Positions 732 through 11,841 of a stretch of DNA of 11,848 bases are shown here, piece by piece. The position numbers and the translations under genes were made by a program. This stretch comes from Candidatus Omnitrophota bacterium (GTDB taxonomy: Bacteria; Omnitrophota; Gorgyraeia; Gygaellales; Profunditerraquicolaceae), in the NCBI GenBank assembly GCA_903907475.1, contig CAIVOB010000120.1, positions 1-11,848 of the forward strand, in the 5' to 3' direction. Position 1 is the stretch's first letter. Each line of letters begins with the position of its first letter. The notes beneath the pieces were generated by a model. The model ran no database searches, had not been told where the DNA came from, and saw nothing but the letters and a program-made list of their open reading frames with translations.

Positions 732-1217
732 ATGAAAAAAATTATTTTAATTACAATTTTAGGCTTAAGTATTTTTGCTTCTGTTGCACTAGCGCAAAAA
801 GTAAGTAAAATCGAATTAAATAATGGGAGTGTAATTATGGGAGAAGTCACCGGAGTCAATAACGGAACCTACTCCATTAATTCCCCGGAAATGGGCACGC
901 TTCAAATCGCCGAAAAAAATATTAAACAAATTGGCTTTGCCAATTCTAGTGAAAATTTAACCCACTCACCTAAATCCACAGATATCTCTCCTGAAAAAAT
1001 GGATGCCTTACGTAATAAATTATTAGGAGACAAAGATACAATGGGTATGGTGATGTCCCTCCAAAACGACCCGCAATTTCAAGAAGTACTTAAAGACCCG
1101 GATATAATTAACGCCATCAAATCCGGAAATACCGCAGCATTAATGAATAATGAGAAATTTATGCAGCTTAAAAACAATCCGACGGTACAAAAAATAAAAG
1201 ATCGCGCGGGAGAATAA
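732..1217 (+). CDS. Secreted protein with SH3-like N-domain and STI1-like C-terminus
   Basis: This 161-aa protein begins with a clear Sec signal peptide: Lys2-Lys3, hydrophobic residues 4-19, probable cleavage after Ala-Leu-Ala at 19-21. Residues 26-68 (IELNNGSVIMGEVTGV, then YSINSPEMGTLQI) form a short beta-rich unit like those in proteins that start with 'L.DGS.I.GEV', probably an SH3/Sm-like barrel. Residues 69-90 look like a linker. Residues 103-155 (MSLQNDPQFQEVLKDPDI, then NNEKFMQLKNNPTVQKI) carry the repeated DP/NP helical pattern of STI1/Hop DP domains, which bind hydrophobic peptide segments. It should therefore be a periplasmic or lipid-face binding or chaperone-like protein; the client is unknown. 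It is the only plus-strand gene here, has its own promoter and strong ribosome site, and its stop lies 3 bp from the stop of the convergent MacB-like gene. Confidence 0.85.
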   Translation: MKKIILITILGLSIFASVALAQKVSKIELNNGSVIMGEVTGVNNGTYSINSPEMGTLQIAEKNIKQIGFANSSENLTHSPKSTDISPEKMDALRNKLLGDKDTMGMVMSLQNDPQFQEVLKDPDIINAIKSGNTAALMNNEKFMQLKNNPTVQKIKDRAGE

Positions 1218-1233
1218 ATTTTATTCGTAGCGC
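1189..1233 (-). terminator. Possible terminator of the efflux operon, inside the convergent gene's 3' end
   Basis: A hairpin spans both stop codons: arms GAATAAA/TTTATTC (1212-1218 and 1220-1226) with GCGC/GCGC (1204-1207 and 1230-1233) able to close the base. Read on the minus strand, it is followed four bases later by TTTTATTTTTT (1199-1189). The central stem is A+T-rich and the outer pairs are separated by a bulge, so it is weaker than the terminator at 82-122. No T-tract follows on the plus strand. Confidence 0.4.
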
Positions 1234-3191
1234 AGTGCTTCAATCGGATCAAGTTGCGAAGCTTTTCTGGCAGGCCAAACTCCAAATATTAAACCCACAA
1301 CAAGTGAAAACACCGTCGCCAAAATCACCGAGGTCAAAGACACGACCACCGTCCAACCGGCAAAAACATTTATTAAAGTAGCAATCCCCCAGCCCAATAA
1401 AACTCCCGATAATCCACCGATGAGTGACATTAACACCGACTCAATTAAAAACTGCACCATAATATCTTTATTGTTTGCCCCGATCGCTTTACGTAATCCG
1501 ATTTCACGCGTGCGCTCCGTAACGGAAACCAGCATGATATTCATAATACCGATTCCTCCTACTAAAAGCGAAATTGCCGCAATTGCCCCCAATAATAGCG
1601 ACATCGTTTTAGTGGTGGCCTCAAGCGTTTTCTTTAAATCCGCCATATTGCGAATCTGGAATGAATCTTCATTATCTTTACTCAAGCGGTGCTGTTTAAT
1701 AATGGTCTTCGAAAGTACATCCTGAGCTTCATCCAAAAGATCCGGGCTAATAACTTCGACAAAAATACTATCAATATACTGCTTACCAAAAACCCGATAC
1801 ATGGCAGTAGTAATCGGAATGACCACTGTATCATCCTGATCATGAAAAGAATTGCCTCCTTTTTCAGGAAGAATACCAATCACTTTAAAATTAATCAAAT
1901 TGATTTTAATGCTTTGGCCCACCGGATTAGAATCACCAAACAATTCCTTAACTACCGTTCTGCCCAAAAGAGCCACCTTCTCCCGCATTTTTACTTCTTG
2001 AGCGGAAAAAAATCTCCCAATCGTAGGAACCGCGGCACGCACCTCTTCGTAATCCACACTTGACCCTTCAACCTCGGTGTTCCAATTCTTATTTGCATAA
2101 ACCAGCTGCCCCCGCCCAGTTACCGAAGGACAAACTTTTGCCACATAATCAGTAAGTTTGGTAAACGCCGTAACATCTTGAAATGTAAAACGCGTGACCG
2201 CGCCAGTCTCTAGAGACACGCCATGTGATTTCTCCGATCCCGGCCTAATCATAAGCAAATTTGAACCTAAAGAGACCAACTGTTTTTCAATTGATTCTTT
2301 CGCGCCCTGCCCCAAAGATAACATCGCAATTACTGCGGCGACTCCAATCAAAATTCCCAAAATCGATAAAAACGAACGCAATTTATGCGAGACCATCGCG
2401 AAACCTGCCTGACGTAAATAATCCAAAAACTTAGTTTGACCGGAAACTTTATGCGGTTGAGATAAAATCGTATCGGCGAAATTCTCCCCCAACGTCACTG
2501 CCGGCGCGAGGCCCAAAACATTTCCTACCGACTCATCAGAAATAATTTTACCATCGCGCATTTGAATTATTCTGCGCGCATGAGATGCCACCTCCTGCTC
2601 ATGAGTGACCACGACAATGGTTTTTCCTTCCTGATTTAATTTTTCCAGGATGGCAATAATTTCCGCTTTACTTTTTGAATCAAGATTACCGGTCGGCTCA
2701 TCCGCAAAAATTATCACCGGATCATTGACCAAAGCCCGAGCAATCGCCACTCTCTGCTGCTGGCCTCCGGACATTTCATTTGGGCGATGAAACATCCGCT
2801 CTTTTAAGCCCACTTTCTCGATTTCCTGCCGTGCCTTTTCTTTTAAGTTCCTTTTACCGGCATAAATTAAAGGCAATTCCGCATTTTCTAATGCCGTCAT
2901 TCTCGGTAAAAGATGGAACTGCTGAAAAATAAAACCCACAATCTTATTCCTTAAAATCGCTAACTTTTCATCAGTAAGTTTACTAATTTCTTTATCGCCT
3001 AAATAATAAGAACCAGAATCCGGCCGGTCTAATAATCCTAAAATATGCATGAGCGTGGATTTTCCCGACCCGGATGCCCCCATAATCGCGACAAATTCAC
3101 CCGCCGCGATCTTCAGGGAAACTCCGTCCAAAGCCTTGACCTCCACCTGCCCCATGAGATAAGTTTTATTTACATTCTTTAATTCGATCAT
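1221..3191 (-). CDS. macB: MacB-like ABC transporter, fused ATPase and permease
   Basis: This 656-aa protein has the MacB layout and length: N-terminal ATPase, then an MacB-type permease with a large periplasmic domain. The ATPase (1-225) shows Walker [10 protein letters not shown] (38-46), Q-loop Gln90, signature SGGQQ (141-145), Walker B IIFADE with catalytic Glu165, D-loop, and switch His197; no key residue is missing. The first membrane helix is about 272-294, the periplasmic domain about 295-530, and the other three helices about 530-556, 580-608 and 617-638. The cytoplasmic segment [15 protein letters not shown] (558-572) is typical of the family. MacB proteins work as mechanotransmitters with a MacA adaptor and TolC, expelling substrates from the periplasm. 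Both partners lie directly upstream, 11 bp to the adaptor. The substrate cannot be read from the sequence; macrolide export should not be assumed. The ribosome site is weak, so translation may be coupled. Confidence 0.92.
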
Positions 3192-3202
3192 ATTTTATTT
3201 TT

Positions 3203-4174
3203 TTACTTACTCTTGGTTTCTTTCTTTTTTCCAAACGGCATAAACGGATTAGTGCCGGTACTACTTTTCGGCAGGAGGTATTTTTTTTCTTTAATCATCA
3301 CCGCATCAGTCTTACTTATCCCAGAAAGAATCTCCACATTTTTATCATCGGTAATCCCCACCTTAACTTTCTGCTTTATTCCTTCCTTAAGCGCCGAATC
3401 TTTTAACATGACAAAGCTTTCTTCGCCTTCCTTGTGCAGTGCCTCCAGCGGAACAAGCAGGGCATTTTCCCTGCTCTGTTCGACAAAATTTATCGTCACA
3501 TTCATTCCGGAACGAAAAATATCCAGCACTTTTTCAGGAATTAAATCTACTTCATAAATCGTAACATTATTTACTGTTTGAGATTCATAATAAATATGCT
3601 CCACCACCGCATTTACTTCAACATCCTGATAAGCATCCAAGCTCACGGTAGCTTTCTGCTTGAGCTTGATTTTTCCGATATCCGTTTCATCAACCTGGGC
3701 GCGGATAATCAATTGGTCTGACAAAACAATCACCGCATCAGCCGTTGTCACCGTTTGGCCCGGCTGAGTAGTGGCAACAATGACCTCTCCTTTAATTGGC
3801 GCTAATAACGCAATCGGCTTATAAGTTTCCTGCCAATATTTTAATTTATCTTCTCCCTGCCCCTGGGCAGCATCTAAAAGCGCGGCCCGTTCAGTAGAAC
3901 TCATCCAAGCTAAAACATCACCGGTTTTAACACTCTGGCCCTCTTTTACCAAAACACTCTCTAATCTACCGTTTACCGGAGGCTTAATCTCCAAACGATT
4001 TTTAGGCAAAATTGTACCCGTCGTGGAAATTATAGTTTCAATTCCACCAATCATAGGAGTAATCTCTTTCCATACTTCCCCGGAATCATTTTTAGGCCAA
4101 AACTTAAACGCCAAAAAAATAACCACTGACAAAACCACCGGAACGATAAAATAATATTTAACTTTTTTATTCAT
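3203..4174 (-). CDS. MacA/HlyD-family membrane-fusion (adaptor) protein
   Basis: The frame is open up to 4297, but the start is placed at the ATG at 4174. That ATG sits inside the last codons of the TolC-like gene (8-bp overlap) and has GGAG about 12 bases upstream, giving a 323-aa protein that begins with a short basic segment and one membrane anchor (residues 8-25). The longer version would overlap the TolC-like gene by over 120 bp. Residues about 62-95 and 120-150 are the two halves of the lipoyl-like domain (PPVNGRLESVLVKEGQSVKTGDVL; APIKGEVIVATTQPGQTV), about 152-230 the beta-barrel and 235-300 the membrane-proximal domain. It would join the MacB-like pump to the TolC-like duct across the periplasm. 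The segment between the lipoyl halves is only about 25 residues, far shorter than the long coiled-coil hairpin of classic MacA. The C-terminus is Lys-rich (KKKETKSK). Confidence 0.88.
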   Translation of the reverse strand: MNKKVKYYFIVPVVLSVVIFLAFKFWPKNDSGEVWKEITPMIGGIETIISTTGTILPKNRLEIKPPVNGRLESVLVKEGQSVKTGDVLAWMSSTERAALLDAAQGQGEDKLKYWQETYKPIALLAPIKGEVIVATTQPGQTVTTADAVIVLSDQLIIRAQVDETDIGKIKLKQKATVSLDAYQDVEVNAVVEHIYYESQTVNNVTIYEVDLIPEKVLDIFRSGMNVTINFVEQSRENALLVPLEALHKEGEESFVMLKDSALKEGIKQKVKVGITDDKNVEILSGISKTDAVMIKEKKYLLPKSSTGTNPFMPFGKKKETKSK

Positions 4175-5462
4175 ATTCGATAGTTTCTCCTTTCGCTTGA
4201 ATCCAACTCGCTTGAGCGTATAATTCATTTGCTTGCGCATCAAGATAAGCTCTCTTAGCAGTAACCAAATTATTTTCAATGATAATCCAATTATCAAAAT
4301 TTATAAACCCGGTCGAATATTGCGCCTGAGCAATCTTCGAACGCTCTTCATTAGCACCTAAAACTTTATTCTCTACCATAACACCTTCAACCGCATCTTG
4401 CAGTCCTGCCCAAGCTTCTTCTAAAGTTAAAATTGCTGCATCCTTAGTGCTTCTTTCATTTTCTTTCAACTGATTTAATAAAGCCTGCGCTTGAGAAACC
4501 TGCGCCAGCCTTAATCCGCCTTCAAAAATCGGTAGCGATAATTCTAACCCCAAGTCCCATTCATTTCCCCGCGGCGCCCAATGCGAACCGGTTTTACTGG
4601 CTCCGGCAGAACCGGAAAGCGTGGGAGAAAAATTACCATAAGCTGATTTCAAATTAAAATTTGCGGCATTTTTTTGCGCTACTAACTGCAATACCGAAGG
4701 ATTATTTTTAACAATTGCTTCAAAATCGGGTTTATCTATTACAGGATCTTTAATTTCAAAATCACCTTTTACGGTTATAGGAATTAATTGTAAGCGGCCT
4801 AATTCTTTAGTCAAAGCCCTTTGCGCAACCTCAATACTTCTTTTGGCATGAGAAATTTCATAATTAGCCGAAGCTAAATCCGCTTCCGAAGTTAATAAAG
4901 CGCCTTTATGTTCTAAACCAGATTCATAACGCAAAGTGATAAGTTCCAGATTTTCTCTCCTAATCTCGAAAATTTCATGCGCTATCTTTAAAGCTTCTTG
5001 AGCTTTTAATAAATCAATAAAGGCATTCCGTAACCTGAATCTTACAGTCACTGAAGTAAAACGAAAATTTTGTCGCGCAGCATTAATATTTTCAGCAGCA
5101 GCCTTAACATTATTAATTGTTTTTGCGCCGTTAAAAAATAATTGTGTGGCGTTAACTCCATAACCATAAGCATCACTTTTTGCACTTGAGCCCGAAGCGC
5201 TGGAACTTTGAGAGGTGGAAGCGCTAGCGCTAGCATTGACCTGTGGGAAAAGCGTGCTGGCAGTAACTGTTTTAGCAGCTTGCGATTGCTTCACCTCTTG
5301 ACTGGCAGCAATTAAATCCGGCTGATTTTTTGCAGCTTCTTTAAGGCACTCCTGCCAGGAAAGCACTTCTGCCGCAGTTGCCTGTTGCAAGAAAATAGAC
5401 ATAGCAGCAACCAACAAAAAATAAAATTTAAATTTATTTAATATCGTCTTAACCATTGCCAT
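4167..5462 (-). CDS. TolC-family outer-membrane efflux protein
   Basis: The 431-aa product has an N-terminal signal peptide (hydrophobic residues 12-28, probable cleavage around ATA-AE at 28-32) and the two repeated OEP halves of TolC. Each half has a long helical region plus barrel strands: LFPQVNASAS to YGYGVNATQLFFNG (71-112) and FSPTLSGSAGASKTG to LGLELSLPIFEGGLR (278-318). The helical segments at 185-222 and 385-425 are Ala-rich and coiled-coil-like. It would trimerise into the outer-membrane channel of the pump. Residues 77-95 form a Ser/Ala/Thr-rich low-complexity stretch within the first extracellular hairpin. The start is uncertain: ATG at 5462 or ATG at 5456 two codons later, both with a poor ribosome site, 3 bp after the regulator gene's stop, so coupling is likely. 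The adaptor gene overlaps its 3' end. Confidence 0.9.
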   Translation of the reverse strand: MAMVKTILNKFKFYFLLVAAMSIFLQQATAAEVLSWQECLKEAAKNQPDLIAASQEVKQSQAAKTVTASTLFPQVNASASASTSQSSSASGSSAKSDAYGYGVNATQLFFNGAKTINNVKAAAENINAARQNFRFTSVTVRFRLRNAFIDLLKAQEALKIAHEIFEIRRENLELITLRYESGLEHKGALLTSEADLASANYEISHAKRSIEVAQRALTKELGRLQLIPITVKGDFEIKDPVIDKPDFEAIVKNNPSVLQLVAQKNAANFNLKSAYGNFSPTLSGSAGASKTGSHWAPRGNEWDLGLELSLPIFEGGLRLAQVSQAQALLNQLKENERSTKDAAILTLEEAWAGLQDAVEGVMVENKVLGANEERSKIAQAQYSTGFINFDNWIIIENNLVTAKRAYLDAQANELYAQASWIQAKGETIEYE

Positions 5463-5465
5463 TCA

Positions 5466-5711
5466 TTAATCTTTCTTTTTAGAAATCTCTTCTTTCATAC
5501 TATTAAGATGATTCTCGAAAAGTTTTAAAAACTTATTAAACTCCTCCTCCGGCACGATACTTATCATCTTGGCATGATGCGGAGGCCCGGAAATAACCAT
5601 GACACTGTCTCCAGGTTTAATCTGCATCGCTTTTCTTGCTTCGAGCGGAATAACAATCTGCCCCTTGGTCCCCACCGGCACTTTACCAAAAAACTTACGC
5701 AGCTTATTCAT
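5466..5711 (-). CDS. AbrB/SpoVT-type DNA-binding regulator, probable autoregulator of the pump operon
   Basis: This 81-aa protein has a swapped-hairpin AbrB/MazE/SpoVT domain at about residues 11-55, with the signature VGTKGQIVIPLEARKAMQIKPGDSV spread over 13-37. A charged helix follows (56-81: EEEFNKFLKLFENHLN and a Lys-rich end), probably for dimerisation or effector sensing. Proteins of this type bind short A+T-rich repeats as dimers or tetramers, either as stand-alone regulators or as antitoxins. No toxin gene is adjacent: the next gene, 3 bp away, encodes a TolC-family protein. It is therefore more likely the local regulator of the efflux operon. The ATG at 5711 has AAGGAG seven bases upstream. 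Tandem repeats at 5759-5785, just after the promoter, are the probable binding site. Confidence 0.88.
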   Translation of the reverse strand: MNKLRKFFGKVPVGTKGQIVIPLEARKAMQIKPGDSVMVISGPPHHAKMISIVPEEEFNKFLKLFENHLNSMKEEISKKKD

Positions 5712-5868: not shown

Positions 5869-6957
5869 CTACAAACGCGGCAAATTTAAACAAGCTTCAG
5901 TCTCCGTCACAAGTTCTAAGATTAACTCTTTAACCGAAACGATCTTATTAATACGATAAGCATTGCTACCGCACATCGCAAACCCTTTATCCATCTCCCC
6001 CCGAGAAGCATTGAGCAGCGCTTTAGCAATACAATAATTAACTTTTTTCGCATCACAAGTATATAAACACTGATACTCGCAACCAAAATCCATGCGTTCC
6101 CCTTGAGAAATCCTCTTTACAAATTCATTCAAAATTACCCTTCCCGGCAAACCTACCGGGCTTTGAATAACAACAATATCCTCTTTTTTAGCGGCAAGAT
6201 ATGCCTCTTTATATTTTAAAGATACATCGCATTCATGGGTACAAACAAAACGCGAAGCCATCTGCACTCCACTTGCCCCTAAAGATATTAGTCGCGCAAT
6301 ATCTTTACCGTCAAAAACTCCCCCGGCGGCAATTACCGGTATGCGCGTTGAATCATTCTCAAAAGCATGCGCCACCGCCAATACTTCAGTTAAAATTTTA
6401 TCCAAATTAAAATTCTTTTCATCACTAAGTTCAGCCATACTATATCCCAGATGTCCGCCGGCAAGCGGCCCTTCTACAATAATTGCATCCGGCAGGCGCT
6501 TATACCTTCTGGCCCAAGTACTACAAATAATTTGCGCTGCCCGCGCCGAAGAAACAATCGGGATAAGCTTGGTATGCTTATTTTTAACTAAAGACGGCAA
6601 GCGCAACGGTAAACCTGCTCCGGAAATAATAACATCTACCGCTTCAGCTTGCGCCGCTTCCACAAGCTCATCATAGTTAGTAAGCACGCACATAATATTT
6701 ACGCCGAAGGGATTCTGCGTCAGTTTTCTAGTCGCGCGGATAATATTTGTCAATTCCGCCCGCGAACGCATTTTATAATCGCGCTGCTCATTACCACATT
6801 CCTCTCCCAACCCCACCGCAGCGATTATCCCTAACCCGCCTTCATAGGATACCGCCGAAGCTAATGAAGAGGCCGACACCCGCACTCCCATTCCACCCTG
6901 AAAGATCGGACGCTTAATTATTAAGTCACCTATTTTGAGATCTTTAAATTCTCGCAT
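5869..6957 (-). CDS. Nitronate monooxygenase / 2-nitropropane dioxygenase-family flavoprotein
   Basis: The product is a 362-aa FMN-dependent TIM-barrel protein. N-terminal IFQGGMGVRVS (about 18-28) is the family's opening motif, the catalytic-type His169 lies in EGPLAGGHLGY (162-172), and AAGGVFDGKD (210-219) plus GVQMASRFV (230-238) form the phosphate-binding end of the FMN site. Relatives include nitronate monooxygenases, which oxidise alkyl nitronates, and FabK enoyl-ACP reductases; sequence alone does not decide. The C-terminal 70 residues add a cysteine cluster, C293, C297, C301 and C309 (CEYQCLYTC...C), with C329 further on, which may bind metal or an Fe-S cluster. The ATG at 6957 is preferred; a TTG one codon earlier is the only in-frame alternative. 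No clear Shine-Dalgarno is seen. It has its own promoter and is flanked by the pump operon (downstream) and the terpene-like operon (upstream). Confidence 0.85.
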   Translation of the reverse strand: MREFKDLKIGDLIIKRPIFQGGMGVRVSASSLASAVSYEGGLGIIAAVGLGEECGNEQRDYKMRSRAELTNIIRATRKLTQNPFGVNIMCVLTNYDELVEAAQAEAVDVIISGAGLPLRLPSLVKNKHTKLIPIVSSARAAQIICSTWARRYKRLPDAIIVEGPLAGGHLGYSMAELSDEKNFNLDKILTEVLAVAHAFENDSTRIPVIAAGGVFDGKDIARLISLGASGVQMASRFVCTHECDVSLKYKEAYLAAKKEDIVVIQSPVGLPGRVILNEFVKRISQGERMDFGCEYQCLYTCDAKKVNYCIAKALLNASRGEMDKGFAMCGSNAYRINKIVSVKELILELVTETEACLNLPRL

Positions 6958-6984
6958 CAACTTATTTCACCATTTTCTGCGTCA

Positions 6985-7058: not shown

Positions 7059-7086
7059 ATTATAGCACTGAAAACATATTTTTCAA
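7059..7086 (-). promoter_or_regulatory. Extended -10 promoter of the nitronate monooxygenase gene
   Basis: On the minus strand, -35 TTGAAA (7086-7081) and a perfect -10 TATAAT (7064-7059) are separated by 16 bases, with an extended -10 TGC directly before the hexamer. It overlaps the stop codon of the gene at 7083-7418. The start point would be near 7051, giving a leader of about 94 nt. Confidence 0.75.
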
Positions 7087-7418
7087 TCTTTTAGTTTACA
7101 CGCGCAATGCTTTTTGCTTAAAATTTTTATTTGCTGCTTCGGAGAATCCACAAACACGGTTTGCTTTTTATTACCCAGAGCTTCTTTCTGATTTAAAACG
7201 CTCTGATGCTGATATCCTCGAGACCTCATTTCCTGCACTAACATTCGATGCCTTAAATACAAAGCTGCTAATTTACCTTTCCAACGTAAAGTTTCCGGAT
7301 GCCGCGCGTATCCTTTTTTACCCTTGGTAAGAATAGACCAAATTGCATGCAACTCTCGATGTTCACCTAAGAGATGATTGCGGCATAATTTATTAACCGA
7401 AAGATCCCAAATCCTCAT
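7083..7418 (-). CDS. Pyrimidine-dimer DNA glycosylase-family protein (T4 endonuclease V-like)
   Basis: The 111-aa product begins MRIWDLS and contains NHLLGEHRELHAI (14-26) and GKKGYARHPETLRW (33-46), the pattern of the Pyr_excise family (PF03013). Against T4 endonuclease V as I recall it (QHLMAEYREL), Glu22 falls on catalytic Glu23, Arg21 on Arg22 and His15 on His16. Such enzymes cut the glycosidic bond at UV dimers using the N-terminal amine and then nick the strand. It is shorter than the phage enzyme (about 138 aa); the tail after residue 75 is Lys-rich and ends with a Cys-Ala-Cys pair, unlike the T4 tail. The ribosome site is poor (GAG, far upstream). It follows terpene-like gene B by 30 bp on the same strand and is probably last in that operon; a link to isoprenoid chemistry is not obvious. 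Other family members are annotated only as hypothetical. Confidence 0.75.
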   Translation of the reverse strand: MRIWDLSVNKLCRNHLLGEHRELHAIWSILTKGKKGYARHPETLRWKGKLAALYLRHRMLVQEMRSRGYQHQSVLNQKEALGNKKQTVFVDSPKQQIKILSKKHCACKLKD

Positions 7419-7448: not shown

Positions 7449-8402
7449 TTAGATAAACAAAGATAATTTATTTAATTTTTTTTCTTTCGTAAAAAATACA
7501 ACTTGCATTAAACTTCCTACCCCTTTTAAATACCCATCCGGGTTCGGGCTATACTGGCGCAAATATTCAGCAGTCTCTTCGAATTTTCTTAACAAAGCCC
7601 TTTTAGGGTCAGCGCTTTGATTAATATAATTAATTTTACCATCGGCCAGATCTTCATCGTAATCATAAAAATTATCCAAACCCGCAAAAAAATCTGCGGT
7701 CAGGTCCAAAGCTCGAATAAGATCGATTGGCAAATCATTCATCATAATATACATATCTAACAGAAAACCATTCTTAATCTTATAAGGAACAGCTTTCTCA
7801 ACATTCTCTCTTGCATCCGGAACACCTTGAGCATCATTTACTGCTTTAAGCGTGGCGTAATAGTTCCCAAACTTCGCAATCGGCGCTAATTCTCTAATTT
7901 TTTTTCTTAAATCTAAAAACAATCTATAATCAGCATTCGCTAACAACTTCTGATTCGACTCCTGCTTAAATAAAACCTCTTTATCAATATGTTCATTATC
8001 AAGCAAGTCATCATAAACTCGTTTTAAGAACGCCATAAGAATACACCTTCTTTGTGCCTTGCGATCAGGTAAAATATTATAAGCTAGAAACAAACTGGTA
8101 TGTTCATATAAAAGTACCGCCGCCATCTTAAAAAAACGGTAGTATAATTGCTCCGCTTTAAGTTTACATTCTTTCTTATACCAACGGGGAATAAATTCTT
8201 TAAACCCCGCATCACTGGCTCTAATACAGGAAAACCAACGCTTTTTATCGGCGCTCAGGTTGGCATTGATTTTCACGATCATCTCCCGGTAATGCGGCAG
8301 GCCCCGCGCGTCATTTAACATCCACCACAAACGCTCAAATAGCTTTCTCCCATCTTTAGACAATGAAAAATATAACCCAAAAATCTTCATCTTTTCTAAC
8401 AT
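7449..8402 (-). CDS. Class I terpene-synthase-like protein B (YtpB/DUF2600-like)
   Basis: The frame opens at 8441, but the ATG at 8402 fits better: it follows the preceding stop by 4 bp, and its product starts like the paralogue at 10891-11841 (MLEK..IFGLYFSLSKDG against MLNF..IGILYLTLSKEG). The all-helical 317-aa product has two acid-rich motifs of class I isoprenoid synthases: DDLLDN at 131-136 and LDNFYDYDEDLADGKINY at 242-259. The second resembles the 'LDYF.DQEED...GDLNF' motif I recall from YtpB/DUF2600 (tetraprenyl-beta-curcumene synthase), and the first its 'DYLDN'. Such motifs hold Mg2+ and the diphosphate of a prenyl substrate. The substrate and product are unknown. No Shine-Dalgarno precedes the ATG, so coupling to the radical SAM gene is likely. 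Squalene/phytoene synthase-like or UbiA-like are alternatives; the latter is less likely, since no membrane helices are evident. Confidence 0.65.
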   Translation of the reverse strand: MLEKMKIFGLYFSLSKDGRKLFERLWWMLNDARGLPHYREMIVKINANLSADKKRWFSCIRASDAGFKEFIPRWYKKECKLKAEQLYYRFFKMAAVLLYEHTSLFLAYNILPDRKAQRRCILMAFLKRVYDDLLDNEHIDKEVLFKQESNQKLLANADYRLFLDLRKKIRELAPIAKFGNYYATLKAVNDAQGVPDARENVEKAVPYKIKNGFLLDMYIMMNDLPIDLIRALDLTADFFAGLDNFYDYDEDLADGKINYINQSADPKRALLRKFEETAEYLRQYSPNPDGYLKGVGSLMQVVFFTKEKKLNKLSLFI

Positions 8403-8406
8403 TGGT

Positions 8407-9651
8407 TTAATTTTTAAAATAGGTAAATATCTTTTGCACATGATTCGGGCTCATAAAACTGCTCAATTTATTTTTTTCTGCAAGCGCTAAAGCAATTCTC
8501 CCAAAACACATCGGATCTTGGCCAAATACTCCTTGGCTATCACTTTCGTAAGTATAACCATTACCGCGACAGCCATAACAAAGCTCTAATTTCTTACTAT
8601 AATCGCAAACCCCACAAAAACCCTTTAAATTTTTATACGCCCGGCGAACACGTTTTAGCAGGACATTACGCTCTAGTTTACGCTTAATATTCTTATCATT
8701 TAAATTTCCTAAATGCTTGTCTACTCCACAACAAACACTTAAGGCGCCATTACGCTCTAAAAATATTCCCCTGCCATAAGTCAATTTATCACAAGCCGCA
8801 GGAAAAACGCTCCCATAAGGCGGCTGCCAAATATTTGATTCCCGGGCTTCCTTTTTACTTAATCCAGAGCGCAAAGACAAATTTAAAAGCGAAAGTTCAT
8901 AAATATCCTTAACATATTGCTCCGGGTTAATATTTAGTTGCTTAAAATTTTTAACGCAGCCCCCCTTAATCACCGGCACTTCCACAAAAGGCACAAATCC
9001 GTTCTTAAAACATCTTCTCCAAAACGATAAAAGATCCCCCCGGTTAATGCCGGTATATAAAAATTCAGCAATAACCCTGGTTTTCTTATAACGTTTACTT
9101 AGACTCTTTACCAAATCCCAGCTTTGCCGAATCTTAAAATAAGCGTCTTTATTTTTTATCAGCTGCGCTACGGATTTTTTGCTCCCCCAATCTTTCATAA
9201 ATAACACGCCCTCTTGGTCGAATAAAACCTTTAAAACAGATTCTTCTAAAGCAATCCCGGAAGTAGCCAGGCAAACCCTGACTTTTAAATCTTTACTTAA
9301 CCAAGAAATCATTTTTTTCAGAAATTTATTCGGCTCCTCTGCTTCCTTATCCCAAAGTGTGGGCTCACGCCCATAGAGAGTCACAAACTCCAGCCCCAAT
9401 TTTTTTAATTTTTTAAAAAAACGCTGAAAAAGCTTAAACTCCGCGTTAAGATCATTAACCGTTTTATTTTTTTTCTCATCGTCATAGGATCGCAGAACCG
9501 GGCAAGTAATACAGCCGGCCTGACATCTACCGGTAATATTAAACTCTACGTATTGGACTAAGGATTCTTTCGCTGGAACGCTTAATGCGTTACCAATAGT
9601 TTTAAATCTTCCCCAAGGGGTTGCTCGGGTCGGAAGGTTAAGATTGCTCAT
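8407..9651 (-). CDS. Radical SAM/SPASM-type enzyme 2 (414 aa)
   Basis: The radical SAM cluster motif CQAGCITC (Cys43, Cys47, Cys50; CxxxCxxC) follows VEFNITGR. The usual GGEP is replaced by GREP in TLYGREPTLW (91-100), and LATSG (128-132) is the next barrel strand. The C-terminal third is Cys-rich: C287, C307-C308, C346, C349, C358, C361 and C382, arranged like a SPASM or twitch domain that holds extra Fe-S clusters. This class forms the 5'-deoxyadenosyl radical from SAM; SPASM members often modify peptides, but also sugars and other small molecules. Here the neighbours are isoprenoid-synthase-like, so a prenyl or terpenoid substrate is the best guess. The ATG overlaps the TAA of enzyme 1 by one base (TAATG), a coupled start. 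The gene for terpene-like protein B begins 4 bp after its stop. No B12-binding domain is present. Confidence 0.85.
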   Translation of the reverse strand: MSNLNLPTRATPWGRFKTIGNALSVPAKESLVQYVEFNITGRCQAGCITCPVLRSYDDEKKNKTVNDLNAEFKLFQRFFKKLKKLGLEFVTLYGREPTLWDKEAEEPNKFLKKMISWLSKDLKVRVCLATSGIALEESVLKVLFDQEGVLFMKDWGSKKSVAQLIKNKDAYFKIRQSWDLVKSLSKRYKKTRVIAEFLYTGINRGDLLSFWRRCFKNGFVPFVEVPVIKGGCVKNFKQLNINPEQYVKDIYELSLLNLSLRSGLSKKEARESNIWQPPYGSVFPAACDKLTYGRGIFLERNGALSVCCGVDKHLGNLNDKNIKRKLERNVLLKRVRRAYKNLKGFCGVCDYSKKLELCYGCRGNGYTYESDSQGVFGQDPMCFGRIALALAEKNKLSSFMSPNHVQKIFTYFKN

Positions 9652-10859
9652 TAAAGCCCCCGGGCGGATTTTATTTTTAAAAATGATCGATAGTTGCGAG
9701 ACATCACTTTGGCTAATCGCGGAGTAATTGAATTTCTTTCATTAAATGAAACAGTCGAAGTCCATTGTTTACCTAACAAATACTTTTTAAAACCTTCCGG
9801 ATCAGCATAAATCGGACATTCTCCGGGATATTGAGCATGGCACCAATCAAGAGTAGAATCTTTAATCAATCGCTCAATATCTCCTCCTAAAATATTATGC
9901 TTAGCATAATGAAAGAAGGGACAGCATTTTATATTTCCATCAACATCAAAGAATATTAATCCCGAGCAGCGCTTCTGCGCCGTTTCCTGCATATAAATTT
10001 CAGAATTTTTAATAATCTGAGCTTTTCTCTTTTCCATTAAATAATAAGTTTTAGCCGTTGGCACAAGCTTCGGAAGAGCTTGCGCACCCACCGGAATATA
10101 CTCCAAATACCGGGCTAAAATTGCGCCCTTCTTTTTCATAATTTTTACGAATTTTTTACTAAGGACTTCTCGGGCGTTAAGATTCGTAACCATGGATAAA
10201 TATCCCCAGGGTATCCGAGCGGCATTTAAAATTTTAATCGCGCGCTGTACTTGAAGATAGCTCCCTTGACCTTTAAAATAATCATGCCGCTTTTGCGCGC
10301 CTCCATCAACACTTAAAACTGGTATCAGATTACCTAAAGCAGAAAGTTTAGCAGCATATGACCGATTAATCGGACCGCCATTAGTAAACATAAAAAAAAG
10401 AATATCCGGATTATTTTTAGCGATCGCCAAAACACGCCGGTCTAAAGTTGGCTCTCCGCCGGTAACAAAAACATGTTTATAATTATTCCGCGCTAATTTC
10501 ACTATGCGCTTAACTACCGCGTCTTTCATGTTCTTCTTAAACTCCGCTCGAGAATAGCAATGCTGACATTGCTGATTACAATGCTTGGTAATTTCCATAA
10601 TTATCGAACCATGCCGCCCATCTTTATTGATTTTGCGCCGATAGATTCTAAGATAAGCACGAAAAAAACCCGACCTAAAACGCGGATTAGAAATCATCTT
10701 TGAAATCTCCGACAAATGCGCCAAAAATTGCTCTTGAACCAAAGGATCGCGGGCCAACTTATTTAACTCACCCTTATACTGCGCTAATTGGCGCGGAAAT
10801 TTTTGCTTTAATAATTTAGCTAACTCCGGAAGTAATTTTTTTGCCCCAACTTTTTTCAT
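9651..10859 (-). CDS. Radical SAM/SPASM-type enzyme 1 (402 aa)
   Basis: After an 85-residue basic, helical N-terminal extension comes IIMEITKHCNQQCQHCY with Cys94, Cys98 and Cys101 (CxxxCxxC), the site of the SAM-cleaving [4Fe-4S] cluster. VTGGEPTLD (132-140) is the canonical GGEP, MFTNGGP (157-163) the next strand and VLSVDGGAQKRHDYF (181-195) the SAM-binding strand. C-terminal C298, C312-C313, C340 and C348, with DVDGNIKCCPF (305-315), look like a SPASM/twitch domain. The frame opens at a GTG at 10871, but the ATG at 10859 is preferred: GGAG (complement of 10871-10874) lies 11 bases upstream and MKKVGAKK is a normal start. It follows terpene-like gene A by about 30 bp and overlaps enzyme 2 by one base. 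It is only distantly similar to enzyme 2, so the two are probably not interchangeable. The substrate is unknown. Confidence 0.87.
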   Translation of the reverse strand: MKKVGAKKLLPELAKLLKQKFPRQLAQYKGELNKLARDPLVQEQFLAHLSEISKMISNPRFRSGFFRAYLRIYRRKINKDGRHGSIIMEITKHCNQQCQHCYSRAEFKKNMKDAVVKRIVKLARNNYKHVFVTGGEPTLDRRVLAIAKNNPDILFFMFTNGGPINRSYAAKLSALGNLIPVLSVDGGAQKRHDYFKGQGSYLQVQRAIKILNAARIPWGYLSMVTNLNAREVLSKKFVKIMKKKGAILARYLEYIPVGAQALPKLVPTAKTYYLMEKRKAQIIKNSEIYMQETAQKRCSGLIFFDVDGNIKCCPFFHYAKHNILGGDIERLIKDSTLDWCHAQYPGECPIYADPEGFKKYLLGKQWTSTVSFNERNSITPRLAKVMSRNYRSFLKIKSARGL

Positions 10860-10890
10860 TATTACCAACACTCCAATTTTTTAGTTAAAA

Positions 10891-11841
10891 TTAATCAATA
10901 TTTAAAAAACTATTTTCAATATTTGTGCCCCGTTCTTTCGCATCGATAATTCGCGTCGTAATCATCTCCATAAATTTAATTAATTTATCCGGATTCGGAG
11001 CAGCTTGTTTTATAATCTCCCGGCAAACTTCGAATTGTTTCCACATTACCTCTTCCGGCTCTTTAGCCATAATCATATAAGTTACCCGATTGATCTGCCT
11101 ATCGTGCTCTAAATCCGCTAATTCATCTAGCATATATAGCCATCTGGCCACCGGTTTTAATACTATTTTTAATTTTTCAGGGATTTCATTGACCATGATA
11201 TACATAAATAGTAAAGCAACATATGGAGCAACCTCATCCAAAACTATTTCCGCCTTCTCCGGTGTATACGCAAATAAACTGCAAACGCTAAACCCCTGTA
11301 AATGTTCGTAATATTTAGCGAAAAGTTCTGGGGGCGCGAGTTTACGCTCCAAGTGCTTAAGCTGCCTTAAAAAGTCAAGCTCTTTTGGTATTAAAGCCTT
11401 ATAATCAAAAGCCGCGAATAGTTCCTGAAATGAATATCCTTGGTTATCAAAAAGATCGTTCCATTCCCGATGCGTAAAAGCCACCAAGACACAACGCTCT
11501 TGCGCTGCTTTATCATAGGCAAGATTAAATGCCTCAAGCATCTTGCCCCACATCAAAAGACTAAACCATCCGTAAGCCACAAATCTAGCGTACATCACGG
11601 ATTTATCACGCCCAAGGCTAGCACATAATTTATTTGACGCCTGTTGATTAAATACTTTATCGCAAACTTTAAGCGTTTTGACAAAATAAAGAATTTTCGC
11701 CGCATCTATTACTATCGGTTTGGTCAAAACTTTATTAACTTGGCGGGATTTATTAAAAGCTTTTTTTAAAAAACACTTGCCTTCCTTACTCAGCGTTAAA
11801 TATAATATTCCAATTTGAAACTCTGCTCCAAAGTTTAACAT
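10891..11841 (-). CDS. Class I terpene-synthase-like protein A (YtpB/DUF2600-like)
   Basis: This 316-aa, mainly helical protein is a diverged paralogue of the product of 7449-8402. Shared landmarks in the same order are the start (LTLSKEG), the first acidic motif NDLFDN (128-133), the 'ERKLAPPELFAKYY' region (164-178), the helix FMYIMVNEIP (212-221), the second motif LDELADLEHDRQINRVTY (238-255) and AAPNPDKLIK (280-289). The D..DN core of motif 1 and the D...D...HD of motif 2 match the DUF2600-type pattern I recall, but the DGK step of paralogue B is absent here (DRQINR). It may be a catalytic class I synthase or a partner subunit. The ATG at 11841 follows an in-frame TAA directly, so the start is fixed; that TAA may end another gene beyond the window. 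It is the most upstream visible gene of the operon, and the promoter is outside. Confidence 0.6.
   Translation of the reverse strand: MLNFGAEFQIGILYLTLSKEGKCFLKKAFNKSRQVNKVLTKPIVIDAAKILYFVKTLKVCDKVFNQQASNKLCASLGRDKSVMYARFVAYGWFSLLMWGKMLEAFNLAYDKAAQERCVLVAFTHREWNDLFDNQGYSFQELFAAFDYKALIPKELDFLRQLKHLERKLAPPELFAKYYEHLQGFSVCSLFAYTPEKAEIVLDEVAPYVALLFMYIMVNEIPEKLKIVLKPVARWLYMLDELADLEHDRQINRVTYMIMAKEPEEVMWKQFEVCREIIKQAAPNPDKLIKFMEMITTRIIDAKERGTNIENSFLNID

Follow-up and report, generated by a model that had tools for sequence, protein, structure and literature searches.

A four-gene block pairing predicted class I isoprenoid-synthase-fold proteins with putative radical SAM enzymes in Omnitrophota

In the hopanoid pathway, HpnC and HpnD are a pair of squalene-synthase paralogues and HpnH is a radical S-adenosylmethionine (SAM) enzyme that modifies a terpenoid. 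The GDGT-macrocyclic archaeol synthase is a precedent for radical chemistry on isoprenoid lipids, and MoeN5, from the moenomycin cluster, moves a prenyl group onto a non-prenyl acceptor. Here we examined an 11,848-nucleotide stretch of DNA (contig CAIVOB010000120.1; hereafter the window, meaning the whole stretch) from Candidatus Omnitrophota bacterium, a member of a phylum known almost only from metagenomes. It carries a block of four genes, which we call A, R1, R2 and B in their order of transcription. A and B are predicted to have the class I isoprenoid-synthase fold, and R1 and R2 are assigned by sequence to the radical SAM superfamily. The block keeps the same order in all four intact loci that were found, and on balance we lean slightly towards reading it as the centre of an accessory operon for biosynthesis, which would use polyprenyl diphosphate from the host to make a lipid-like isoprenoid for export. 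Each enzyme class is already known, and the locus is an isoprenoid-type gene cluster; we know of no earlier description of the two synthase-like families or of their pairing with two radical SAM enzymes.

The hopanoid genes offer a useful working analogy, in that a radical SAM enzyme there accompanies a pair of paralogues with the class I fold. However, no squalene/phytoene synthase match (SQS_PSY, PF00494) was found in the window genome or in any of the 24 A and 26 B homologues scanned (E up to 0.1), so the block lacks the squalene-synthase-family pair of that pathway; it also has no cyclase gene, and HpnH is not among the best 25 of the 67 NCBIfam matches of R1. MoeN5-type prenyltransferases have the class I fold and are the best fold match of the A and B models, but identity is 8-13% in the aligned MoeN5 rows, and the two adjoining radical SAM enzymes set this locus apart from the moenomycin cluster. 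The lipid-acting archaeol synthase (7tol) matched the R1 profile weakly in the radical SAM core (E 3.3e-4), but only R1 residues 88-199 align, which does not amount to a family relationship. SkfB, NirJ and sulfatase maturase resemble R1 and R2 in having a radical SAM core with auxiliary cysteines, but the listed scores are far below curated cut-offs and no precursor peptide common to the loci was found nearby.

The block as a conserved unit

The four genes are minus-strand open reading frames (ORFs; Table 1) packed closely together. The A stop codon lies 31 bp from the R1 ATG (10859), R1 and R2 have one base in common (TAATG), and the R2 stop is followed after 4 bp by the B start at 8402, or is overlapped by B if that gene starts at 8441. 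The original prediction had described this layout, with gaps of about 30 bp and 4 bp around a 1-base overlap, and both the ORF list and inspection of the junctions confirm it for the inner starts of R1 (10859) and B (8402), on which those spacings rest. Its account of composition and packing stands, but it had missed the linkage to an exporter and the relation of A to DUF5685, both described below. A promoter and terminator scan returned about as many sites as in shuffled sequence.

It had been set out beforehand that the four genes should occur together in other genomes, and the order A-R1-R2-B is identical in all four intact genome loci, namely the window (G000), G026 (L003/L042), G011 (L004/L043) and G220 (L044). 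These loci span two genera and their flanks mostly differ; only L043 and L044 have the upstream transporter in common. Occurrence is patchy, with 4 intact loci among 108 family genomes. The B profile matched five of these 108, the four intact loci and one remnant, and, of 384 genomes drawn from the whole phylum, four: three with an intact block and, again, the remnant (G008). Of 285 phylum genomes, three gave R2 scores above 600 bits, and these are the three in which the B profile had met an intact block; R2 matches in further genomes (41 of 285 in all, the others at or below 58 bits) were put down to other radical SAM proteins and left out of the count. The A profile matched in 3 of 58 relatives, and R1 was surveyed by one genome-contig scan only, which returned two loci, both labelled Candidatus Omnitrophota.

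Protein searches listed 40 A, 44 B and 62 R2 proteins, the window's own counted in each, and the block families are therefore more than chance. Where an organism name was shown, eight of nine homologues came from Omnitrophota and one, the B relative P0082, from Lentisphaerae. Among contigs of at least 6 kb, 17 of 22 for A, 19 of 25 for B and 18 of 35 for R2 were of exactly the same size as a contig matched by another of the families, where equal size is only a proxy for contig identity, the window's proteins are counted and a 7194-base contig is counted twice for A. By the same proxy, 17 of the 35 R2 contigs have no A or B match; on these, either R2 stands alone or its partners lie beyond the reach of the word-based search. 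Distances across the four loci and seven contigs found in the A, R2 and B lists (R1 being left out) were correlated for A-R2 (0.93), A-B (0.85) and R2-B (0.93; Mantel p ≤0.0004 throughout), a co-divergence that shows shared history, not function.

The remnant in G008 gave a B profile match that is weak on its own (20.8 bits). This genome aligns to L042 until position 5963 and resumes at 10617, about 4.65 kb with the block being replaced by 45 bp. The scar (G008:C70, L048; reverse strand, ~1468-1590) holds the last 25 codons of B, stop included, with a perfect 22-base palindrome at the junction and L042-like flanks on both sides, which suggests that G008 once had the block and then lost it whole. 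Given the conserved order, the same-size contigs and the co-divergence of A, R2 and B, the proposal that the four genes belong to one pathway is well supported.

The four proteins

A and B are 26% identical over 314 aligned columns (E 1e-25), and their profiles align with 99.9% probability (E 1e-33), which bears out the proposal that they are paralogues. Their terpene-synthase-like character comes from fold models, Pfam alone being insufficient: polyprenyl_synt (PF00348) matched none of the 24 A and 26 B homologues at E up to 0.1, and PDB sequence searches with A and with the A and B profiles found no convincing relative. The few PDB matches, three with the B profile and one with R2 (best E 0.051), were read as chance. 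Lack of the class I fold had been named in advance as grounds for giving up the idea, and the AlphaFold2 models of both proteins display it in its all-helical form. VIA-align listed isoprenoid synthases in 50 of 50 rows for each model, chains not listed not counting as excluded; the 50 rows per model listed by Foldseek were likewise isoprenoid synthases, save one UbiA row for B, with no E-value at or below 0.001.

Each protein carries two acidic motifs (Table 1), about 110 residues apart and on predicted helices, which look like those of DDxxD and then DxxxD chemistry. Motif counts come from alignments of part of the matches (24 of 40 for A, 26 of 44 for B and, for the cysteines below, 30 of 62 for R2). 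Residue 128 of A is N in 22 of 24 sequences and D in the other two, residue 251 of B is D in 25 of 26 and E in one, and A residue 243 and B residue 247 sit in one-residue breaks of the predicted helices. A GT2-A fusion (P0039) that holds only the part of A after motif 1, on a 1437-base contig, was treated as an assembly chimera or deletion. Two A-type proteins, P0027 and P0031, have longest contigs of 7194 bases each, which suggests a tandem duplication of A.

A also appears to be a distant relative of DUF5685 (PF18937). All 24 scanned A homologues match this family at E up to 0.1 (best 2.9e-6), and the A-type protein P0034 also carries a precomputed PF18937 annotation. However, the window's A falls below the curated cut-off (17.2 vs. 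26.7 bits), which only P0027 among five scored A homologues exceeds (27.3 bits), and none of the 26 scanned B homologues matches. In 384 phylum genomes, PF18937 matched the A of G011 itself and one further genome, G385, whose locus (L056) looks like a region of ribosomal-protein genes; this match was set aside as chance. DUF5685 is present in one of 14 control genomes, that of Thermotoga maritima.

R1 matches Pfam Radical_SAM (PF04055) above the cut-off (E 5.8e-17) and R2 falls just below it (E 2.7e-6; 28.1 vs. 29.5 bits); PF04055 is precomputed on R2's own database entry (P0085) and on many R2 homologues. R1 has an N-terminal extension of about 85 residues and a C-terminal, auxiliary-cluster-like set of cysteines (C298, C313, C340 and C348) present in all four sequences. 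The best 25 of its 67 NCBIfam matches, all far under cut-off, include NirJ, GeoRSP, sulfatase maturase and sactipeptide maturases. In the PDB, R1 matches SkfB best (E 4.9e-10 with the R1 profile), and a sulfatase maturase is also matched. The SPASM model PF13186 matches R2 weakly (E 0.16) and is precomputed on 3 of 62 listed homologues. Since CxxxCxxC and seven further cysteines are kept throughout the R2 alignment, R2 is probably a full SPASM enzyme despite that score. PDB sequence searches with the R2 protein and profile likewise turned up no convincing relative. For A, R1, R2 and B, Pfam, NCBIfam and PADLOC yielded no specific family, and none names the whole set.

Exporters, precursor supply and neighbouring genes

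A permease gene and an ATPase gene precede the block in L043 and L044, with 21 and 15 bp, respectively, left before A. By type, the L044 proteins are MacB_PCD-FtsX and LolD-like; their L043 counterparts share 80% and 76% identity with them. The window, read in the direction of A, begins 7 bp before that gene, and contig C13 of the same genome (L059, 4.5 kb) holds a complete orthologous permease, 88% identical to that of L044, and breaks off at residue 198 of the 226-residue ATPase, which is correctly oriented. C13 thus probably abuts the window contig (C120) at the start of A; no overlap was found between the two contigs. C13 also carries an orthologue (77.5% identical) of a gene upstream of the L044 block. 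In G026 the block has no adjacent permease/ATPase pair, and a MarR-TolC-adaptor-RND set follows B. The TolC-MacA-MacB-like genes of the window (1221..5462) are possibly linked to the block, to judge by their position.

Exporter nearness is notable because such genes are few per genome, in a comparison chosen after the neighbours had been seen: MacB_PCD matches number 2 in G000, 5 in G011, 1 in G026 and 3 in G220, and PF02321 stretches, two per protein as listed, number 6, 8, 4 and 6. Exporters of the MacB/LolCDE/DevBCA type pick up what they transport at the periplasmic face of the membrane, as would suit a lipid-like product. An ArsG-family permease over its NCBIfam cut-off (L044:2614-3716, plus strand) adjoins a small CxxC protein a few kilobases upstream of the block in L044.

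LYTB/IspH is present in all four genomes with an intact block, and a single polyprenyl synthetase (PF00348) match was found in the window genome (94% complete), on another contig. Therefore, prenyl diphosphate is probably available to the block, and A and B are not the sole candidates for a housekeeping synthase.

Table 1. Features of the window, with those of the block first
Feature	Position	Strand	Remarks
Gene A	10891..11841	-	316 residues; predicted class I isoprenoid-synthase fold; distant DUF5685 relative; first in block
A motif 1, residues 125-132	11446..11469	-	R-E-x-N/D-D-x-x-D; R125, E126, D129, D132 in 24/24
A motif 2, residues 239-247	11101..11127	-	D-x3-D-x3-D; D239, D243, D247 in 24/24
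R1	9651..10859 (ATG) or to 10871 (GTG start possible)	-	radical SAM protein
R1 CxxxCxxC, residues 94-101	10557..10580	-	radical SAM motif; kept in 4/4
R2	8407..9651	-	414 residues; radical SAM/SPASM-like protein
R2 CxxxCxxC, residues 43-50	9502..9525	-	radical SAM motif; kept in 30/30
R2 SPASM-type cysteines	8506..8793	-	C287, C307, C346, C349, C358, C361, C382; all seven in 30/30
Gene B	7449..8402 or to 8441 (start possible)	-	317 residues (8402 start); A paralogue; predicted class I isoprenoid-synthase fold
B motif 1, residues 127-135	7998..8024	-	K-R-x-x-D-D-x-x-D; K127, R128, D131, D132, D135 in 26/26
B motif 2, residues 243-251	7650..7676	-	D-x3-D-x3-D/E; D243, D247 in 26/26
Pyr_excise gene	7083-7418	-	PF03013, E 1.4e-26; pyrimidine-dimer glycosylase family; directly 3' of B
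Nitronate monooxygenase/FabK-like	5869-6960	-	187.7 bits, well below FabK equivalog cut-off of 453.1
AbrB/MazE-like small regulator	5466-5711	-	immediately before the TolC-MacA-MacB-like genes
TolC-like	4167-5462	-	downstream of block
MacA-like adaptor	3203-4297	-	downstream of block
MacB-like ABC	1221-3191	-	downstream of block
Small protein	732-1217	+	signal peptide judged by eye; weak STI1/HOP DP match (E 0.00067)

Competing explanations and a proposed pathway

The affinities of R1 and R2 raise the question of whether A and B have the class I fold without prenyl catalysis, as binding or assembly proteins, with R1 and R2 as maturases for a peptide, protein or tetrapyrrole. Such a system, like those for ribosomally synthesized and post-translationally modified peptides or for cofactors, would agree with the NCBIfam and SkfB matches of R1 and with the R2 C-terminus, which resembles TIGR04053, AhbD and NirJ2 and bears the seven invariant SPASM-type cysteines. 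However, no small ORF (20-90 residues, within 2.5 kb) outside the block is common to the four loci, save ORFs that shadow the L043/L044 permease and one that runs antisense to the start of A, in a comparison that covers linked precursors only and has just the 7 bp before A in the window and about 0.2 kb after B in L043. In addition, both proteins conserve acidic motifs of the metal type, which argues against a mere scaffold, as this would not need them, and we consider such a system unlikely. We give somewhat less credence still to the idea that catalysis falls to A or B alone, with its partner serving as the regulatory or chain-length subunit in a heteromeric prenyl synthase. Heteromeric geranyl diphosphate and hexaprenyl diphosphate synthases are precedents, each of the four loci has both genes, and motif 1 of A departs from the pattern at its first Asp, but each protein keeps metal-type acidic residues in both motifs.

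The block might also be a defence or stress island that makes a viperin-like, anti-phage small molecule, as R1 matches PADLOC pVip models (2.3e-12) and occurrence is patchy. We regard this as very improbable: the R1 match covers the radical SAM core, where other families score higher (NirJ 52.2 vs. 38.2 bits for viperin), and R1 falls far short of the NCBIfam viperin equivalog cut-off of 180 bits, which speaks against its being a prokaryotic viperin. Moreover, PADLOC has no model that A, R2 or B matches at E ≤0.01, and the scar in G008 suggests presence followed by loss. That four unrelated genes are adjacent by accident is scarcely credible; close packing is common in small genomes, but the same order in two genera with mostly different flanks, the co-divergence and the loss as a unit all tell strongly against it.

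We return to the isoprenoid operon that we favour. From the computed fold, motifs, gene unit and exporter proximity we infer its catalysis, substrate, order of steps and class of product as follows. A and B would be diverged class I-fold proteins that act on prenyl diphosphate, probably as successive half-reactions or as a heteromer, and would ionise the prenyl chain and either couple or transfer it, using metal bound at their two acidic motifs. R1 and R2, the latter with its SPASM-type auxiliary-cluster domain, would then carry out C-H functionalisation or C-C bonding on that product. The product may then cross or leave the inner membrane through the MacB/LolD-like ABC exporter encoded just upstream, or through a nearby RND or MacAB-TolC system.

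More tentatively, and with some doubt, we propose that the block represents an unrecognised class of isoprenoid pathway, in which two class I-fold families outside the isoprenoid Pfam models, one of them linking DUF5685 to the fold, would pass a prenyl chain on to two radical SAM enzymes, and uncultured bacteria would export the radical-modified lipid through a dedicated MacB/LolD-like transporter. If this is true, two synthase families would be added that Pfam and PDB sequence searches miss, and the relationship of A would suggest a fold for DUF5685, a family that extends to Thermotoga maritima. The block would then also provide a compact four-gene route to a radical-modified isoprenoid, small enough for a laboratory host.

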